A DNA stretch of 49,132 nucleotides, from contig JAHFUI010000008.1 of assembly GCA_023265175.1 (NCBI GenBank), positions 13,170 to 62,301 on the forward strand. Reading direction: 5' to 3'. The stretch is from Acidobacteriota bacterium (GTDB lineage: Bacteria; Acidobacteriota; Vicinamibacteria; Vicinamibacterales; CAVVIG01). Below the pieces are notes generated by a model that saw only the letters and a list, made by a program, of their open reading frames with translations, did no database searches and had not been told where the DNA came from. Position 1 is the first letter of the stretch; the number at the start of each line of letters is the position of its first letter. The position numbers were made by a program, and so were the translations under genes. Below, piece by piece: positions 31,094 through 43,222 of this stretch.

Positions 31094-31149
31094 TTCAGCG
31101 TTCAGCGTTCAGGGTTCTGGGTTCGGCTCCGGGTTGCGGGTTTGGGGTG
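31094..31149. repeat. 7-base word array between murG and murC
   Basis: Eight words in register from 31094: TTCAGCG twice, TTCAGGG, TTCTGGG, TTCGGCT, CCGGGTT, GCGGGTT, TGGGGTG. Direct only, with no inverted arm, drifting towards G-rich. It fills the gap from just after the murG stop (31089) to the murC start (31154). Confidence 0.8.
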
Positions 31150-31153
31150 CGGA

Positions 31154-32581
31154 GTGCTAGGCAAAACGCGCCGCGTGCATTTCATCGGCATCGGCGGCAG
31201 CGGCATGAGCGGCATCGCGGAGCTGCTCGCCAATCTGGGGTTCGTCGTCAGCGGGTCGGACGAATGGCGCTCGGCGGTCACCGATCGTCTCGCGTCGCTG
31301 GGCATTCCCGTCGCGCACGGACACGATGCTCGGTCGATCGGAGACGCCGATGTCGTGGTGGTGTCGTCGGCCGTCAGGGCGACGAATCCTGAAGTACGCG
31401 AAGCGGTGCGGCGCCAGATTCCGGTGATCCCGCGCGCGGAGATGCTGGCGGAGCTGATGCGCCTGCGGTTCAGCATCGCCGTCGCCGGCGCGCACGGGAA
31501 GACGACGACGTCGTCGATGATTGCGCTGGTGCTCGAACGGGCCGGCCTCGATCCGACAGCCGTCATCGGCGGCCGCCTGAGCGCATTCGGCAGCAACGCG
31601 CGGCTCGGCCGCGGGGAGCTCATGGTCGCCGAGGCCGACGAAAGCGATCGCTCGTTCTTGAAGCTGTTCCCGACGATTGCAGTGGTGACGAACATCGATC
31701 ACGAGCATCTGGAAAACTACGGCGGCTTCGACGACCTCCAGCAGGCGTTCGTCGACTTCGCCAACAAGGTCCCGTTTTACGGAAGCGTGATCGCCTGCGC
31801 CGACGATCCGAACCTCGCCGCGATCATGCCTCGCATGACGCGCCGCGTGACGACGTACGGCCTCGACGCGCCAGGATGTGATGTGACCGCAACCGATGTG
31901 GTCCTGCAACCACTGGGAATCGAGGCGATCGTGAAGCGTGGCGGCCGCCGCGCCGGCGAGCCGCCGGAGCCGGCGGCGCTGGGACGGCTCTCACTTCAAG
32001 TACCGGGCCGTCACAATCTGCAGAACGCGCTGGCGGCCGTCGCCGTCGGCCTCGAGCTCGGGCTGTCGTTCGATCGCATTCGGGCGGGCCTTCAGGAATT
32101 TCGTGGCGTGGAACGTCGCTTCGAGGTGCGTGGCGAGCCCAACCGGGTCCTCGTCGTCGACGACTATGCCCACCATCCGACGGAGATCGCCGCGGCGCTG
32201 GCCGCAGCGCGCGCCCTCAATCGACGGCTGATTGTCGCCTTTCAGGCGCATCGGTTCACACGGACCGCGGCGTTGATGGAAGGGTTCGGTCCCTCACTCG
32301 CCGCTGCCGATCACGTCGTGCTGGCCGACATCTACGCGGCCGGCGAGGATCCGATCGCCGGCGTCACCCTCGACGCGCTCGCGGCGGCCATTCGACGGGG
32401 CACGCGCGCGCCGGTCGACGTCGTGCTGGCGCTGGACGATCTCGTTCCCGCGCTGGTCCGCATCGCCCGCCCGGGCGACGTGGTGATGACGCTCGGCGCC
32501 GGTTCGATCGGAAGCGTGGTGGAACGGCTGATTGACGCGCTGGCGGCGAACGCCGACAGCGCGACCGGGAGCGGCACGTGA
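31154..32581 (+). CDS. murC: UDP-MurNAc:L-alanine ligase MurC
   Basis: 475 residues. The N-terminus RVHFIGIGGSGMSGIAELL and SGSD are MurC-specific; the ATP loop is GAHGKTT (112-118), and DEYAHHP is represented by VDDYAHHPTEI. The first amino acid ligase of the pathway, although encoded last of the four here. Start taken as the GTG at 31154; a TTG four codons up is possible. GTGA overlap with ftsQ. No murB or ddl lies between murC and ftsQ, where many genomes have them. Confidence 0.95.
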   Translation: MLGKTRRVHFIGIGGSGMSGIAELLANLGFVVSGSDEWRSAVTDRLASLGIPVAHGHDARSIGDADVVVVSSAVRATNPEVREAVRRQIPVIPRAEMLAELMRLRFSIAVAGAHGKTTTSSMIALVLERAGLDPTAVIGGRLSAFGSNARLGRGELMVAEADESDRSFLKLFPTIAVVTNIDHEHLENYGGFDDLQQAFVDFANKVPFYGSVIACADDPNLAAIMPRMTRRVTTYGLDAPGCDVTATDVVLQPLGIEAIVKRGGRRAGEPPEPAALGRLSLQVPGRHNLQNALAAVAVGLELGLSFDRIRAGLQEFRGVERRFEVRGEPNRVLVVDDYAHHPTEIAAALAAARALNRRLIVAFQAHRFTRTAALMEGFGPSLAAADHVVLADIYAAGEDPIAGVTLDALAAAIRRGTRAPVDVVLALDDLVPALVRIARPGDVVMTLGAGSIGSVVERLIDALAANADSATGSGT

Positions 32582-36263: not shown

Positions 36264-38009
36264 ATGAAGTCCTGGGCCCAACGCGAACGCGCACTCGAAA
36301 TTCTGTCGAAAGAAGTCGGCTACGTTCGCAAGCCGCACGGCGGTCGTGTGCGCATCGCCCTCGCGTTTCCGAACACGTACTGGGTCGCGATGTCGAATCT
36401 TGGGTTCCAGACGGTCTATGGTCTGTTGAACGCGCAGGACAACATCGTGTGCGAGCGCGTCTTCCTGCCGCCCAAGCAGGAGCTCGCGGAGCTTCTCACC
36501 GCGAAAGCGCCTCTCGTCACCCTCGAATCGCAGACGCCCGTGGCAGAGTTCGACGTGTTCGCGTTTTCCGTCTCCTTCGAATGGGATTACGTGAACGTCC
36601 TCACGCTGCTGCGCCTTGCCGGCATTCCGGGACGCGCAGCCGAGCGCGACACGCGACATCCGCTGATCGTGATCGGCGGGGCGGTGACCTTCGTCAATCC
36701 CGAACCGCTAGCGCCGTTCGCCGACGTCATCGCCGTCGGCGAAGGCGAATCCTTGATTCCCGCGTTCGATCGCGCGCTGTCGGCGGCGACCGGTCGCGAC
36801 GATCTCTTGCGCCGCCTCGCGACCGAGCGCGGCTTCTACATTCCGCGCTTCTACGAGCCGCAGTACGCGCCGGACGGCACGCTCGCCGGCTACGCCACGT
36901 CCCCCGGCGTGGACGCGCCGGTCCCCGTCCGCAAAGCGGCGCTGAAAACCACGGAGGCGGTTGATCCGCCCGCGACCAGCGTCTTCACGCCTGACACTGA
37001 ATTCGGATCCCGGTTCCTGATCGAGGTCGTCCGAGGTTGTGCCAACTTGTGCCGCTTCTGCTGGGCCGGCTACAACTACCTGCCGGTTCGCGCGTTTCCG
37101 ACCGAACGCATCCTCGATCTGGCTGCTGCGGCGCGACCTCACGCCAGCCGCGTCGGGTTGGTGTCCATCGCCCTGTGCGATCACCCCGACATCGAAGGAA
37201 TTCTGGCGCGGCTCAACGAGATGGGCTATTCAATCAGTCCGGCGTCGCTCCGCCTCGACGATCTCACCGAGTCGATCGTCCGGGTGTTGCGCGAGAGCGG
37301 GGAGCGGACGATCACGATTGCGCCCGAAACCGGGTCCGATCGCCTCCGTCGCGTCGTCAACAAAACCGTCACGAACGACGAAATCCTCGATCGCGCGGAG
37401 CTGATTTTCGCCAGCGGGATCGAGAACCTGAAGCTGTACTACATGATCGGCCTTCCAACCGAGACGGACGAGGACCTCGTCGCGATTCGCGATCTGACGA
37501 TCCAGCTGCGCGAGTGCATGATGAAGCACGCGCGCGGGCGGGGCACGATCGGCCGAATCATCGGCAGCGTGAATCCGCTCGTGCCAAAGCCGGGGACGGC
37601 CTACCAGTGGCTGCCCATGGAAGATCCGACTGTCGTCGACAAGAAGATCAAGCGGCTGCGCGGCCTGACTGCGGACCTCGACAACGTGTACTTCAACATC
37701 AAGTCAGAACGGCATTCGTACCATCAAGCGCTGCTGTCCCTCGGCGACCGCCGGGTTGCGGCCGCGATCGAGGCGGCCGAGCGCAACGGCCAGCAATGGA
37801 GCGCTGCCGTGGCCGAAGCGGGCGTCGACGCGGACTCTTACATCTTTCGCGACCGCTCGCATGACGCCGTCCTGCCCTGGGACATCATCGACGGCGGCAT
37901 GAACGCGTCCTTTCTCCAGGCCGAGTTCGCCAAGGGCCTGCGCGAGGAATGGACGCTCCCCCTGAAACGACAGCAGGAAAACGCGCGCGTGCTGCCGGTC
38001 ATAGGGTGA
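36264..38009 (+). CDS. B12-binding-type radical SAM protein
   Basis: 581 residues. An N-terminal cobalamin-binding-like Rossmann part (about 30-170, with IGGAVTFVNPEPL and VGEGE) precedes a radical SAM barrel (about 248-480) whose iron-sulfur cysteines are C259-x3-C263-x2-C266 in GCANLCRFC. The C-terminal part, with LPWDIIDGG, resembles the TIGR03960-like family often encoded beside a DUF2344 partner; no such partner follows. Substrate unknown. The 215 bases between ftsZ and this start show no gene, no Shine-Dalgarno sequence and no recognised riboswitch. Confidence 0.88.
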   Translation: MKSWAQRERALEILSKEVGYVRKPHGGRVRIALAFPNTYWVAMSNLGFQTVYGLLNAQDNIVCERVFLPPKQELAELLTAKAPLVTLESQTPVAEFDVFAFSVSFEWDYVNVLTLLRLAGIPGRAAERDTRHPLIVIGGAVTFVNPEPLAPFADVIAVGEGESLIPAFDRALSAATGRDDLLRRLATERGFYIPRFYEPQYAPDGTLAGYATSPGVDAPVPVRKAALKTTEAVDPPATSVFTPDTEFGSRFLIEVVRGCANLCRFCWAGYNYLPVRAFPTERILDLAAAARPHASRVGLVSIALCDHPDIEGILARLNEMGYSISPASLRLDDLTESIVRVLRESGERTITIAPETGSDRLRRVVNKTVTNDEILDRAELIFASGIENLKLYYMIGLPTETDEDLVAIRDLTIQLRECMMKHARGRGTIGRIIGSVNPLVPKPGTAYQWLPMEDPTVVDKKIKRLRGLTADLDNVYFNIKSERHSYHQALLSLGDRRVAAAIEAAERNGQQWSAAVAEAGVDADSYIFRDRSHDAVLPWDIIDGGMNASFLQAEFAKGLREEWTLPLKRQQENARVLPVIG

Positions 38010-38019
38010 CATCGGAATC

Positions 38020-38071
38020 TGGTAATTGAGTAATTTGGTAATTGCAATTGCCCGGTTACCAGATCCGATTA
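38020..38071. repeat. 8-base word hairpin after the radical SAM gene
   Basis: Words at 38020, 38028 and 38036 (TGGTAATT, GAGTAATT, TGGTAATT), a GCAATTGC centre, then CCGGTTAC, CAGATCCG and ATTA in the opposite sense. It fills the gap between two converging genes and includes the stop codon of the SpoVG-like gene. Confidence 0.85.
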
Positions 38072-38672: not shown

Positions 38673-39056
38673 CTAACCGCCGAGAATCAGGACCTGCGCC
38701 ATTGCCAATTCATCGGAATGCGTGATGGTCAGGAGCGACGATTGGCCGCCGATGGCGGTCAGCCGATGTCCGGCACCCCCGTGAAAACGCAGGTGCGGCG
38801 GGCCACCGTGGCGGACGACCTCGATATCGCACCACAGCACGCCCTGCGAGTGACCGGTCCCGAGCGCTTTCATGGCCGCCTCTTTCGCCGCGAAGCGGCC
38901 CGCGAAATGAATCGCGGGTACGCGCCGATGCGTGCAGTACGCAATCTCGCCGGCCGTGAAGATCCGCTGCAGAAAGCGGTCGCCATACCGTGCGATCGTC
39001 GCCTCGATGCGGTCGATATCGGTCGCATCGAACCCGAGCCCGATGATATTTGGCAT
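38673..39056 (-). CDS. acpS: Holo-[acyl-carrier-protein] synthase AcpS
   Basis: 127 residues. Transfers 4'-phosphopantetheine from CoA to acyl carrier protein. The magnesium ligands are Asp10 (GLGFDATDIDRIE) and Glu59 in RFAAKEAAMKALGTG; Lys62 is also in place. Length and domain are standard. It starts 36 bases from the divergent pgeF. Confidence 0.95.
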   Translation of the reverse strand: MPNIIGLGFDATDIDRIEATIARYGDRFLQRIFTAGEIAYCTHRRVPAIHFAGRFAAKEAAMKALGTGHSQGVLWCDIEVVRHGGPPHLRFHGGAGHRLTAIGGQSSLLTITHSDELAMAQVLILGG

Positions 39057-39092
39057 AGTCTCTGCTCAAAGGGAAAACGCTCCACCACAGAA

Positions 39093-39926
39093 ATGATACT
39101 GCCTCAACCGAGCAGTGCGTTCGAATGGAGACAGTTGGACGCGGGAACGGCGCTCGTGTGCCGGCCGCTCGAAGCCATCGCCCGCCACCTGTTCACCACG
39201 CGGTCGTGGCCTCTGGGCTCATCCGGATCTACAGCCGGTGACGCCGCGAGCTGGAGCGATATCGCCAGATCGATGGACGTCGGGTCGGACCATTTGCTGC
39301 GAGTCCACCAAGTGCACGGCGCGAGCGTGGTCGTCCAGCGCACGGGACAGGCGAGGGCCGAGCACGCCGAGGCGGATGTGATCCTCAGCGACGATCCGTC
39401 GGTCGTGCCGAGCATCCAAACGGCGGACTGCGTGCCGCTGCTGATCGCCGATTCGCGGACCGGCTCGGTCGCGGCGGCGCATGCGGGCTGGCGGGGCGTC
39501 TCCCTTCGCGTGCCAGCGGTCACGGTGCGGGCGCTGGCGGAGGCATTCGGCAGCCGTCCGTCGGATCTTGTCGTCGCCATCGGGCCGGCGATAGGGTCGT
39601 GCTGCTATGAGGTCGGCACCGACGTACGGAGTCAGTTCGAAGCAGCCGGCTTTCCGGCCCCCGACCTGTCGCGCTGGTTCCACAGCGAGCCTGATCAATC
39701 ACCGACGAACCCACCGCTCAATGGATTGAGAAATCGCACAGGCCATTGGTTCCTGGATTTCTGGACCGCGGCGCGCGACCAGCTCATCGAAGCCGGCGTT
39801 CCAGCCGGTCAGGTGTTCGCGGCGGAGCTCTGCACCGCGAGCCATCCGGATGCGTTTTGCTCGTACCGACGCGATGGGTCGCGATCCGGCTGCCTGGCTG
39901 CAGCCATCAGGAAGTTTAAAGCCTAA
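39093..39926 (+). CDS. pgeF: Purine nucleoside phosphorylase / laccase-domain protein PgeF (YfiH)
   Basis: 277 residues, YfiH/DUF152 fold. In E. coli it edits peptidoglycan precursors carrying L-Ser; others show purine nucleoside phosphorylase activity. Zinc-site motifs are VHQVHGASVV, TADCVPLL, AAHAGWRGVS and GPAIGSCCYEVG, with the closing CSYRRDG. The ATG at 39093 is chosen since upstream in-frame codons are antisense to acpS. The last codons (KFKA) lie in the word array shared with rnhA. Confidence 0.92.
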   Translation: MILPQPSSAFEWRQLDAGTALVCRPLEAIARHLFTTRSWPLGSSGSTAGDAASWSDIARSMDVGSDHLLRVHQVHGASVVVQRTGQARAEHAEADVILSDDPSVVPSIQTADCVPLLIADSRTGSVAAAHAGWRGVSLRVPAVTVRALAEAFGSRPSDLVVAIGPAIGSCCYEVGTDVRSQFEAAGFPAPDLSRWFHSEPDQSPTNPPLNGLRNRTGHWFLDFWTAARDQLIEAGVPAGQVFAAELCTASHPDAFCSYRRDGSRSGCLAAAIRKFKA

Positions 39927-40005
39927 AGTTCAAAGTGGAAAGCAAGTGGAAGTGGGAAGTACTTTGGACTTACTTCTAACTTTCGCCTTTGAACTTTGAA
40001 CTTCC
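39915..40005. repeat. 7-base word hairpin between converging pgeF and rnhA
   Basis: Thirteen consecutive 7-base words in perfect register from 39915 to 40005: TTTAAAG, CCTAAAG, TTCAAAG, TGGAAAG and so on, then TTGGACT, TACTTCT, AACTTTC, GCCTTTG, AACTTTG, AACTTCC. The two halves are inverted relative to each other. Both genes end inside it: pgeF with KFKA and rnhA with KFKGES. Confidence 0.93.
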
Positions 40006-40419
40006 ACGAAGCGGCGCGTCCATCGCGGCGTTCGCGAGCCGATCGGCGTGCGCGTTGAGCGCGCGGCCGACGTGTTCGAACGTCACGCGACCGATGTCGT
40101 GCGCGAGCAGGCGCGCGGCGGCGTACAGCGGCTTGAGGCCGGGGTGCTTCACCTTGTAGTTGCCGCGCATCTGCTGGACGAGGAGGAGCGAATCCGATCG
40201 CACGTGCACGGCGCGATGGCCGTGAGCCCGCGCCCATTCCAGCGCCGCAAGCAGCGCGCGATACTCGGCGACGTTGTTGGTCGCCACGCCAATCGATTCG
40301 CAGAACTCCTCGACGAGCGTGCCGTCGGCCTGCTCGATGCGGACGCCGTAGCCGGCCGGGCCGGGATTGCCGCGAGCGCCGCCGTCGATAGAGGCGACGA
40401 TTCCGGGTTCAGGGCTCAA
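39976..40419 (-). CDS. rnhA: Ribonuclease HI-family protein
   Basis: 147 residues, slightly short for RNase HI and more like the compact RNase H group. Catalytic acids are visible: Asp in SIDGGARGNPGPAG, Glu in NNVAEYRALLAAL, Asp in RSDSLLLVQQM, and Asp in NAHADRLANAAMD. Degrades RNA in RNA-DNA hybrids. No ATG fits; the best start is a TTG at 40419, itself within a 7-base word array. The last nine codons are supplied by the array at 39915-40005. Gene symbol is by family, since paralogues cannot be separated here. Confidence 0.85.
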   Translation of the reverse strand: MSPEPGIVASIDGGARGNPGPAGYGVRIEQADGTLVEEFCESIGVATNNVAEYRALLAALEWARAHGHRAVHVRSDSLLLVQQMRGNYKVKHPGLKPLYAAARLLAHDIGRVTFEHVGRALNAHADRLANAAMDAPLRGSSKFKGES

Positions 40420-40439
40420 GGTTCCGAATTCAAGGTGCT
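40405..40439. repeat. 7-base word array over the rnhA start and zinc-ribbon stop
   Basis: GGGTTCA, GGGCTCA, AGGTTCC, GAATTCA and AGGTGCT in register from 40405. It spans the rnhA TTG (40419) and the stop codon of the upstream gene (40430). Confidence 0.75.
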
Positions 40440-41182
40440 GGCTGATCAACGTCGTCCGGCGTGGCGGCCGCCGCGGGGGTGGGCACAAAGTACAGGATGC
40501 GGTTGCAGCTGTCGCACTGTGTGATCGCGTCGTTGCGGCGCACCGTGTTGAACACCTGAGGGCGCAGGCGGACGTGGCAGATGGTGCAGATGCCATTGCG
40601 TGCCTCCGCGACGGCGATACCGTTGCGCTTGCGCGCCACCGACTCGAACACCGCGAGCACCTGTTTGTTCAGCGCCGCGACGATCTCGGCACGTTCGCCT
40701 TCGATGCGTTCGAGTAACGTCTGCAACTCGCCGTGTTCGGCGGTCATGCTCCGGCGGTCCGCGTCCACTGCTTTCTGTTCGGCCGCGAGCTCGGCCTCCG
40801 CGCGCTTGACCACGGCCGCGAGTTCGTCGGCTTCGAGCATCCGTTCGAGCACCTTGTCCTCGATCGTCTTCACCCCGCCCTGGGCAAACGCCATCTCCTT
40901 CTGCACCGCCTGGTATTCGACGTTCGTCTTCACCGCCATCAACTGATCGCGGAATTTGGACAACCGCCCTTGATGGAGCGCCACGTCTTTCTCGAGGGCG
41001 CGGCGCGCGTTCTGGTTCGTGGCGAGTTGCTCTTTGGAGGTGGCGACGCGGGTCCGCACCGCTTCGAGACGCGCCCGGAGCGCTTTTTCGCGCTCGGGTT
41101 CATCGGCAAGGCGGCGGCCGGCGGAGTCTGCGGCGGTGTCCAGCCGCTGGAGCGCGATCAGCCGTTCGAGGTCAGCATTCAT
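40430..41182 (-). CDS. Coiled-coil protein with C4 zinc ribbon (COG1579 type)
   Basis: 250 residues. A long antiparallel coiled coil covers about 1-170 (heptads rich in Glu, Arg, Ala, Leu). A C-terminal zinc ribbon has CTIC and CDSC at about 200-230. Similar proteins are encoded near RNase H and are thought to act in nucleic-acid or translation processes; the actual role is unknown. Starts immediately after the tRNA terminator, so it needs its own promoter, which is not obvious. Confidence 0.88.
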   Translation of the reverse strand: MNADLERLIALQRLDTAADSAGRRLADEPEREKALRARLEAVRTRVATSKEQLATNQNARRALEKDVALHQGRLSKFRDQLMAVKTNVEYQAVQKEMAFAQGGVKTIEDKVLERMLEADELAAVVKRAEAELAAEQKAVDADRRSMTAEHGELQTLLERIEGERAEIVAALNKQVLAVFESVARKRNGIAVAEARNGICTICHVRLRPQVFNTVRRNDAITQCDSCNRILYFVPTPAAAATPDDVDQPAP

Positions 41183-41192
41183 TCAGTCGGGC

Positions 41193-41220
41193 AAAAAAAA
41201 GGCCCCGCCGGGGCGGAGCC
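41193..41220 (-). terminator. Intrinsic terminator after the tRNA
   Basis: Read on the minus strand: GGCTCCGCC, CC, GGCGGGGCC (nine pairs with one G-T), then eight T. A textbook rho-independent terminator, 60 bases past the tRNA 3' end. Confidence 0.92.
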
Positions 41221-41230
41221 TGGATTCTCG

Positions 41231-41272
41231 CAATCAATCTGCAATCTGCGATCTTCAATTTGCCATTCCTTG
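41231..41272. repeat. 7-base word array between tRNA and terminator
   Basis: CAATCAA, TCTGCAA, TCTGCGA, TCTTCAA, TTTGCCA, TTCCTTG in register. Direct array, no inverted partner. Confidence 0.7.
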
Positions 41273-41279
41273 GTCATGT

Positions 41280-41355
41280 TGGTGGGCCCACCAGGATTCG
41301 AACCTGGAACAGGCCGGTTATGAGCCGGCGGCTCTCACCGTTGAGCTATGGGCCC
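41280..41355 (-). tRNA. tRNA with CAU anticodon (tRNA-Ile2 or elongator tRNA-Met)
   Basis: Complete cloverleaf of 76 bases with encoded CCA (41282-41280). Acceptor stem GGGCCCA/TGGGCCC, D stem GCTC/GAGC, anticodon stem GCCGG/CCGGC with loop CTCATAA, T stem CCAGG/CCTGG with loop TTCGAAT. A CAU anticodon means Met or, if lysidine-modified by TilS, Ile for AUA codons. It lacks initiator features, since the first pair of the acceptor stem is matched. Lies downstream of rpoD on the same strand. Confidence 0.95.
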
Positions 41356-41359
41356 GAAC

Positions 41360-41496
41360 CAGTCTACAGTCGACAGTCTTCAGTCGCCAGTCGGAATCGC
41401 ACGGTGACTGCCGACTGCCGACTGCCGACTGCCGACTGCCGACTGCCGACTGCCGACTGCCGACTGCCGACTGTCGACTGTCGACTGTCGACTGTC
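41360..41496. repeat. Heptamer array: five CAGTCNN facing thirteen GACTGYC
   Basis: CAGTC-headed words start at 41360, 41367, 41374, 41381 and 41388. From 41406 there are nine GACTGCC followed by four GACTGTC, ending at 41496. GACTG is the complement of CAGTC, so any left word can pair with any right word in several registers. It fills the space between the rpoD stop and the tRNA. Confidence 0.95.
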
Positions 41497-41503
41497 GACT
41501 TGA

Positions 41504-43222
41504 CTACGTCGTTCGTCCTTCCAAAAACGCCCGGAGCTTCCGGCTCCGTGACGGATGACGGAGCTTACGCAGCGCCTTGGCTTCAATCTGACGGATCCGC
41601 TCGCGGGTCACGGCGAAGCTCTGGCCGACTTCTTCAAGCGTGTGCTCGCTGCCGTCCCCGACGCCGAAGCGCATCTTGATGACCCTTTCTTCACGCGGCG
41701 TGAGCGTCTTGAGGACCGACTCCGTCTGCTCCCTGAGATTCAGGTTGATCACCGCTTCGGCCGGCGAGACGACCTGACGGTCTTCGATGAAGTCGCCCAG
41801 ATGCGAATCTTCTTCTTCGCCGATCGGGGTCTCGAGCGAGATCGGCTCCTGCGCGATTTTGAGGACCTTGCGCACCTTCGACACCGGAATGTCCATGCGC
41901 TTGGCGATTTCCTCCGACGTCGGCTCGCGTCCGAGCTCCTGCACCAGCGCGCGCGAGGTGCGAATCAGCTTGTTGATCGTCTCGATCATGTGGACCGGGA
42001 TCCGGATCGTTCGCGCCTGATCCGCGATCGCGCGCGTGATGGCCTGTCGAATCCACCACGTCGCGTAGGTGGAGAACTTGTACCCGCGGCGGTACTCGAA
42101 TTTGTCGACCGCCTTCATCAACCCGATGTTGCCTTCCTGAATCAGGTCGAGGAACTGCAGCCCGCGGTTGGTGTACTTTTTCGCGATCGAGACGACGAGG
42201 CGAAGGTTGGCTTCGACGAGCTCTTTCTTGGCCTGCTCGGCCTGCCATTCACCGCGGATGATCGTCTCGAGCGTGGCCCTCAGTTCGTCGGGCGCCTGCC
42301 CGAGCTCGTCGGTCATCGTCTTGAGCGTGAGGCGCAGCTCCTTGATCTGGCGGACGGCGTTCTTCTTGTCCTCTTCCCTGAGCCGCTGCTTCTTGTTCTT
42401 GGGGTTCAGCTGGCGGATGACCGATTCGATCTCGCGCTGCACCTTCTGAACGGTATCGACCGCATCTTTCATGTCGTCGATCAGCCGGCGCTTCACCGAT
42501 TCGGTGAACTCGATCTTGCGGATGTAGGTCGACAGTTCGATGCGCGCGCGCATGGCCGCCCACCGCGCGCGTCGGTACTTGCGCTTGTCGCGGGTCGTCG
42601 CGCCTCGCGGCGTGTTGCGGAGCTTCTCCTCGAGCTTTTCCGACGCGGCGCGGGCCCTGCGGACCGCGTCGATCTGCTTCTGGACCTGCCTGGAGCGTTC
42701 CTGAATCCGTTCGTCCGTGATCTCTTCGTCGTTGAAGATGACGAGCTCGCGGATCGTTCGATCGCCGGCATACAGCTTGTCGCCGAGCTCGATCACTCGC
42801 CTGGCGATGAGCGGCGTCCGCGAGATCGATTTGATGACCGCCAGCTTCCCGCGCTCGATCCGGCGGGCGATCTCGACCTCGCCCTCGCGCGTGAGCAAGG
42901 GCACGGTGCCCATCTCGCGGAGATACATCCGGACCGGATCGTTCGTTTTGTCGAGCGCGCCCGGCGTGAGATCCAGCTCGAGCTCCTCCGCGCCCTCACC
43001 GGTCCGGTCGATCGGCTTGACATCGTCGCGCAGGTACTTCTGGTCCGAGTCGATGACCTCGATCCCCGCGCTGCCGAACGTGTTGAACAGGTCGTCGAGC
43101 TCATCGGAGGACGTGATTTCCGACGGCAGCAGCTCGTTGACTTCGTCGTAGAGCAGGTAGCCCTTTTCCTTGCCGATGGTGATGAGCTGCCGGACTTCGT
43201 CGTATTTTTCTTCGATCGACAA
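41504..43222 (-). CDS. rpoD: Primary sigma factor RpoD (sigma 70)
   Basis: 572 residues from the chosen start. Region 1.1 ([21 protein letters not shown]), region 1.2 ([11 protein letters not shown]), a non-conserved basic coiled segment, regions 2.1-2.4 ([30 protein letters not shown]), region 3 ([11 protein letters not shown]) and region 4.2 ([20 protein letters not shown]) are all present. The start is set at a TTG (43222) with GGAGG eight bases upstream. A GTG at 43354 would add 44 poorly ordered residues, overlap dnaG by 49 bases and lacks a ribosome binding site. Downstream of dnaG as in the macromolecular synthesis operon. Confidence 0.95.

Follow-up and report, generated by a model that had tools for sequence, protein, structure and literature searches.

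An inverted array of seven-base words supplies the C-terminal tails and stop codons of the converging pgeF and rnhA-like genes

A survey of long simple sequence repeats by Mrazek et al. in 2007 reportedly found an excess of heptanucleotide units and proposed slippage as the cause. Parts of the report of Rehm et al. 2015 (PMC4692102) describe heptameric repeats with the words GGGAATC and GGGGA(C/T)T in Xanthomonas and Nostoc. According to the same parts, the Xanthomonas heptamers are stop-proximal on the sense strand, overlap stop codons and form inverted pairs; few of them lie between divergent genes, and their gene context is the same between species. The intergenic TAACTGA heptamers of Beggiatoaceae are treated in sections of MacGregor 2015 (PMC4679880). 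Some of these overlap the preceding gene's stop codon, and the residues encoded by TAACTGA are mostly found at protein edges; the effect of the word on the reading frames is also worked out in these sections. A literature search found no paper on such repeats in the bacterial group studied here.

The window, i.e. the whole analysed stretch of 49,132 nucleotides, contains a conserved neighbourhood of pgeF (+), an rnhA-like gene (−), a zinc-ribbon gene (−), a tRNA gene and a sigma factor gene (−), which we take to be rpoD-like from reading its translation. The zinc-ribbon gene is provisionally named cdsZ-like on a sub-threshold family match. The pgeF gene (peptidoglycan editing factor, Cu-oxidase_4 family; 39093..39926, +) matches PF02578 (6.6e-56) and TIGR00726 (155.6 bits, cut-off 141.15 bits). 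Its start codon is presumed, and PgeF residues are numbered from position 39099. The converging rnhA-like gene (RVT_3/RNase H; 39976..40419, −) matches PF13456 (5.7e-21) and presumably starts with TTG.

An inverted array of degenerate seven-base words, AAAGTTC followed by GAACTTT, is read from the sequence at the junction of the two genes (39910-40005). The array starts at 39910 and not at 39915, where the earlier note had placed it. The left arm (39910..39947, + strand), delimited by inverted-pair and lag-7 analysis, consists of the words GGAAGTT, TAAAGCC, TAAAGTT, CAAAGTG and GAAAGC... Inverted-pair analysis places the right arm, in which the word is found on the other strand, at 39968..40005 (−); on the + strand it reads ...CTTTCGCCTTTGAACTTTGAACTTCC. 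The spacer between the arms (39948..39967) is partly in the 7-base rhythm, too. The two arms are 71% complementary over 38 nt, and the inner pair 39925-39942/39980-39997 (18 nt) is 89% complementary. As RNA the array folds with -34.8 kcal/mol (z -4.0; none of 200 shuffles folded as well), and the opposite strand with -32.3 kcal/mol (z -4.7). The lag-7 score is 15. Tandem Repeats Finder does not report the array at score 50, and it is thus a worn one. In an Rfam search of 39000-42000 only the tRNA was above the cut-off, with no match at the array. The G-rich GGGNATC unit is not found in this array. The inverted heptamer array at the pgeF/rnhA junction is real and beyond chance.

The PgeF chain ends with ...A-I-R-K-F-K-A, and its last four residues (KFKA) together with the TAA stop are array bases (39912..39926, +; AAG TTT AAA GCC TAA). 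The RNase H-like chain ends with ...R-G-S-S-K-F-K-G-E-S. Here the last nine residues (GSSKFKGES) and the TAG stop are supplied by the array (39976..40005, −), with the tail codons GGA to AGT at 40005-39979 and TAG at 39978-39976. Array bases therefore form both tails, as the earlier note had proposed, and both stop codons.

Sequence homology in relatives stops at residues 270-272 of PgeF and 135-137 of RNase H, apart from a few alignments that reach into low-similarity tails or end early. In 17 aligned PgeF proteins Ile270 is nearly invariant and no conservation is seen beyond Arg271. Both Ile270-Arg271 of PgeF and the Ala-Met-Asp135 motif of RNase H are intact, and the array begins at or past them. 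The length of the array-supplied tails falls inside the range of the relatives' tails. Since family conservation ends before the array residues, the array writes stops and probably dispensable tails and does not erode conserved ends. These alignments bear on several statements of the earlier note. In the orthologues examined the family ends precede the array-coded residues (PgeF about 271, RNase H about 135), and orthologues lacking the array, which the note had named as its refuting case, do not share the terminal residues but have tails of different sequence and length. The proposed erosion of real coding ends, on the other hand, does not hold. Its interpretation as a whole is partly supported.

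The two tails resemble each other (Lys-Phe-Lys), as had been noted. This likeness is not an extra signal, since an array of heptamers yields the same cyclic heptapeptide whichever frame is read: the frames of (AAAGTTC)n translate to KVQSSKF, KFKVQSS and SSKFKVQ. The same property bears on the idea that Lys-rich KFK tails are themselves selected, e.g. for protein stability or efficient termination. Lys-rich PgeF tails do recur (G000, G016 and G013), but A-rich words fix the heptapeptide in any frame, and the tails of other relatives are unrelated, with G030 ending MRD from a G-rich word. Selection for such tails is therefore barely credible.

The pgeF/rnhA array is best explained by slippage-driven heptanucleotide repeats that are tolerated at coding edges; we assign this reading a probability of about 0.75. 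Arrays would arise and change their length through slippage, or short recombination, by 7 nt (and 8 nt). They would persist in unconstrained sequence, which begins near a gene's last conserved codon and also includes some linkers between domains. The first in-frame stop inside the junction array would end each protein, with the array heptapeptide as its tail. A single-base change or the gain or loss of a unit could then shift the stop and rewrite the tail harmlessly, and the hairpin would arise from the second, inverted arm. That slippage is the generator and that the tails are neutral to selection is inferred, as is the sequence of events at the junction.

Convergence of pgeF and rnhA is common in the family. 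Array-less junctions are often tight, from -59 to +16 nt (G012, G006, G005, G020, G002, G003, G015, G001, G053, G031 and G038), and wider array-less gaps are present as well (172 nt in G004, 243 nt in G010, 225 nt in G014, and others). Gaps of array-bearing junctions measure 49 nt in G000, 38 nt in G016, 37 nt in G024 and 53 nt in G023. The junction words are AAAGTTC in G000, AAAACTC/T in G016 and G024 (one genus), AAAGTCA in G013, AGAAGTG in G011 and GGAGTCG in G030. From different words follow different PgeF tails (KLKLKS in G016, KVKVKT in G013, RSEK in G011, MRD in G030); array-written RNase H tails are SKLKREN in G016, EEKLKT in G024 and RSQK in G023. Within genus g17 the array is found in G016 and G024 and is missing in G026. 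The clearest case comes from a comparison of two congeners, the close relatives G012 and G023. Their flanks align, and G023 has one 57-bp segment with the array that G012 lacks. The PgeF tail is RARN* in G023 and RARNYF* in G012, where * is the stop; the TGA comes from the remaining array word. This array-containing indel thus changes the predicted PgeF tail.

The junction array belongs to a large class. The sample comprised 2.03 Mb from 24 genomes: 0.87 Mb came from the own genome and included the window, and the rest was taken from 23 further genomes. Lag-7 segments were counted at a score of at least 14. The sample contains 166 such segments, compared with 4, 2, 7 and 1 at the control lags 5, 10, 11 and 13. 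Lag 8 is also in excess, with 77 segments in 2.03 Mb and 50 in the 0.87 Mb. The own genome has 6.3 lag-7 segments per 100 kb, and hundreds of heptamer arrays per genome are expected in this lineage. Two single-contig genomes contain them, too, with 29 in G029 and 13 in G041 (200 kb each), which excludes broken assemblies as their cause. No lag-7 segments were found in the 10-40 kb sampled from each of G012, G015, G031 and G052. The 292 kb around pgeF relatives of other groups, e.g. Prevotellaceae and Geobacter, contain 14 lag-7 segments; this kind of array is thus not confined to the lineage.

Arrays near pgeF in unrelated phyla were seen in L200 (Prevotellaceae MAG), L194 (Geobacter MAG) and L252 (Parabacteroides MAG), with the words AATTGAC, AATTTTG and AGCCAAT; there are five arrays in 5.7 kb of L200. 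Further repeats are present in the window itself. An array of TTCAGCG/GGGTTCT (31094-31157) starts 4 nt past a TGA (31087) and fills the gap to the next predicted gene. An octamer-like inverted run (GGTAATTG ... CGGTTACC; 38010-38060) follows the stop of a gene at 36264-38009, and G005 has a similar run. A weak heptamer run (ACCTTGA/GCCCTGA/ACCCGGA; 40400-40432) holds the stop of the cdsZ-like gene and the presumed N-terminus of the rnhA product, whose TTG start sits within it. At the matching place, a clear array of the GAACCCT type is present in G026 and G016.

Relative to 1772 genes, called with a home-made caller, the arrays lie close to stop codons and are scarce in divergent gaps. In gaps of at least 20 bp, arrays are found in 10/200 divergent, 77/676 co-directional and 25/163 convergent cases (Fisher p 0.002), i.e. 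10/200 divergent versus 102/839 other gaps. Within co-directional gaps (n=78), 63 arrays are nearer to the stop and 15 nearer to the start (p 4e-8); the median distance is 3.5 nt to the stop and 46 nt to the next start. If stop-adjacent means a start at most 25 nt past the first stop-codon base, 106/1665 gene ends have such an array. In 24 of these 106 the array starts 6 nt or more before the stop, and these array-written tails include weak or doubtful rows (G024 PgeF and G000 L093). In an earlier subset of 48 ends the in-phase match to the word climbs across the stop codon: it is 0.27 between 12 and 24 nt upstream, 0.44 within the codon itself and 0.79 between 10 and 24 nt past the codon's first base. 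A stop-codon bias was also considered and is not used here: TGA accounted for 18/59 versus 476/860 at first and, more weakly, for 49/106 versus 880/1477 later.

The onset of the arrays at the stop codon is sharp, and several of them contain the stop itself in the first word (TAGTCG..., TTAGGAATT...). These features, together with the recurrence of orthologous ends as array sites with different words, would fit arrays that are actively seeded at stop codons, e.g. by some mobile or copying mechanism that is linked to the termination of translation or transcription and takes its word from the local sequence. Selection against arrays further upstream yields the same sharp edge, however, and 21 clusters lie within genes, where they act as linkers. 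Active seeding is considered very unlikely.

Sixty-two inverted pairs were found among 150 clusters, with two loci entered twice. The inverted array could act as a bidirectional transcription terminator or as a 3'-end mRNA hairpin for pgeF and rnhA, with the tails as a side effect of its tight placing. The folds at the junction (z -4.0 for one strand and -4.7 for the other) agree with this, as does the location of arrays at gene 3' ends and their avoidance of divergent gaps. Gene ends with arrays fold better than array-less ones (mean z -1.85 versus -0.44), with z below -2 in 22/59 array ends and 14/120 sampled array-less ends. In Xanthomonas, part of the published account (PMC4692102) has transcripts starting or stopping in G4-type repeats more than in control repeats. 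Against these points, no terminator with a G+C-rich stem and U-tract is detected on either strand at 39910-40012, whereas one is detected nearby at 41221-41200. Canonical terminators are not depleted at array ends (4/101 versus 19/653, p 0.53), and 16/78 co-directional arrays leave no more than 15 nt of other DNA before the next gene. In the array-less rpoD loci of G002, G005, G016 and G026 the stop is about 10 nt from the tRNA, without any hairpin. Furthermore, the complementarity of the arms (0.80; 0.73 when shifted by one word) is no better than the identity within an arm (0.78), so the pairing follows from the word. Among the relatives, the junction of G016 folds with z -3.1 and that of G024 with z -1.2, which is not significant; the z of -2.7 in G023 is due to a G+C hairpin beside the array and not to the array. 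For the pgeF/rnhA junction we regard the terminator or hairpin role as unlikely. A general terminator role for arrays is possible but not supported. A purine-rich-first polarity on the sense strand, tried as a mark of bidirectional terminators, is not supported (31 versus 21, p 0.21; background 361 to 361).

Array positions recur at predicted orthologous gene ends, with largely different words. In 17 orthologue groups with 274 ends, 34 of them with arrays at score 12 (N runs excluded), 71 pairs of orthologous ends share arrays compared with 31.7 expected (sd 4.7; 0/3000 within-genome label permutations), where the pairs of pgeF and rnhA are partly counted twice because these genes have one common junction array. 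The dominant groups are the rpoD-like end (8/19), a gene ending with ..LINHL (6/11) and pgeF (6/19); rnhA ends have an array in 5/18 cases. Word similarity is 0.24 at orthologous ends versus 0.12 elsewhere (p 0.002; the pairs are non-independent). The sharing may reflect either common descent with turnover of the words or repeated birth of arrays at hot spots. The recurrence could also point to a structural element of 3' boundaries, with seven-base periodicity and dyad symmetry as its defining features in place of sequence, and with an inherited position and a free word. Such an element would be seeded at translation stops and rewrite C-termini and linkers as a side effect; we consider this decidedly unlikely.

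In the window, a long CAGTCGA-type array followed by GACTGCC/GACTGTC copies (41360-41500) lies immediately after the rpoD-like stop and ahead of a tRNA. The arrays of relatives at this gene end use other words.

Twenty-one clusters lie within predicted genes and are translated as heptapeptide runs, e.g. QSSVVSR. Four of them, with differing words, are located directly before a common VGDRVIVGGLGL-like stretch in G005, G026, G016 and G002 (L110 15214-15298, L114 15373-15403, L116 1571-1606 and L117 18158-18191). This stretch looks like part of one large gene. In G025 the RNase H orthologue continues through a 138-nt CAGTCGT array (L048 1892-2029) into a MerB-like domain; the array is an open in-frame linker with 21-nt higher-order units. 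Read-through after stop loss, which the earlier note had also suggested, is compatible with this linker. The same RNase H/MerB-like fusion is found in G014, where there is no array, and read-through is therefore not needed to explain it.

Slippage with tolerance at coding edges has limits when taken as a purely neutral process. Neutral slippage alone fails to explain the frequent inverted second arm, which counts against it, and it fails to explain the excess of array sharing at orthologous ends, for which shared ancestry could account. The arrays provide a concrete route from repeat turnover to new protein ends and linkers. The unit length is not a multiple of three, which gives one heptapeptide in all frames and means that changes can move stops; tails can therefore differ between congeners with the folded domain unchanged. 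Annotators of these genomes should regard short basic tails and QSSVVSR-like linkers as repeat-written. Arrays recur at a given gene end with a changed word, and it can be tested whether this reflects an inherited element or a hot spot.

The arrays share the excess of 7-nt units with the long simple sequence repeats of Mrazek et al. The kind of repeat is thus already known and matches published heptameric simple-sequence repeats such as GGGAATC of Xanthomonas. With the latter, as far as described in the parts of that report cited above (PMC4692102), the arrays have in common the tandem 7-nt excess, the proximity to stops, the scarcity in divergent gaps and the inverted pairs. According to the same parts one G-rich word with quadruplex potential dominates in Xanthomonas, whereas here the word changes from locus to locus (AAAGTTC, GAATTAG, CAGTCGT, AGGGCTA and others). 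The TAACTGA repeats are described in the sections of PMC4679880 as one fixed word, nearly always direct and mostly just upstream of starts. In contrast, the word at the pgeF/rnhA junction is AAAGTTC/GAACTTT, and 63/78 arrays in co-directional gaps are nearer to the stop. Locus-specific words, recurrence at orthologous ends and rewritten C-termini and linkers are the features documented here in addition to those of the known heptamers.
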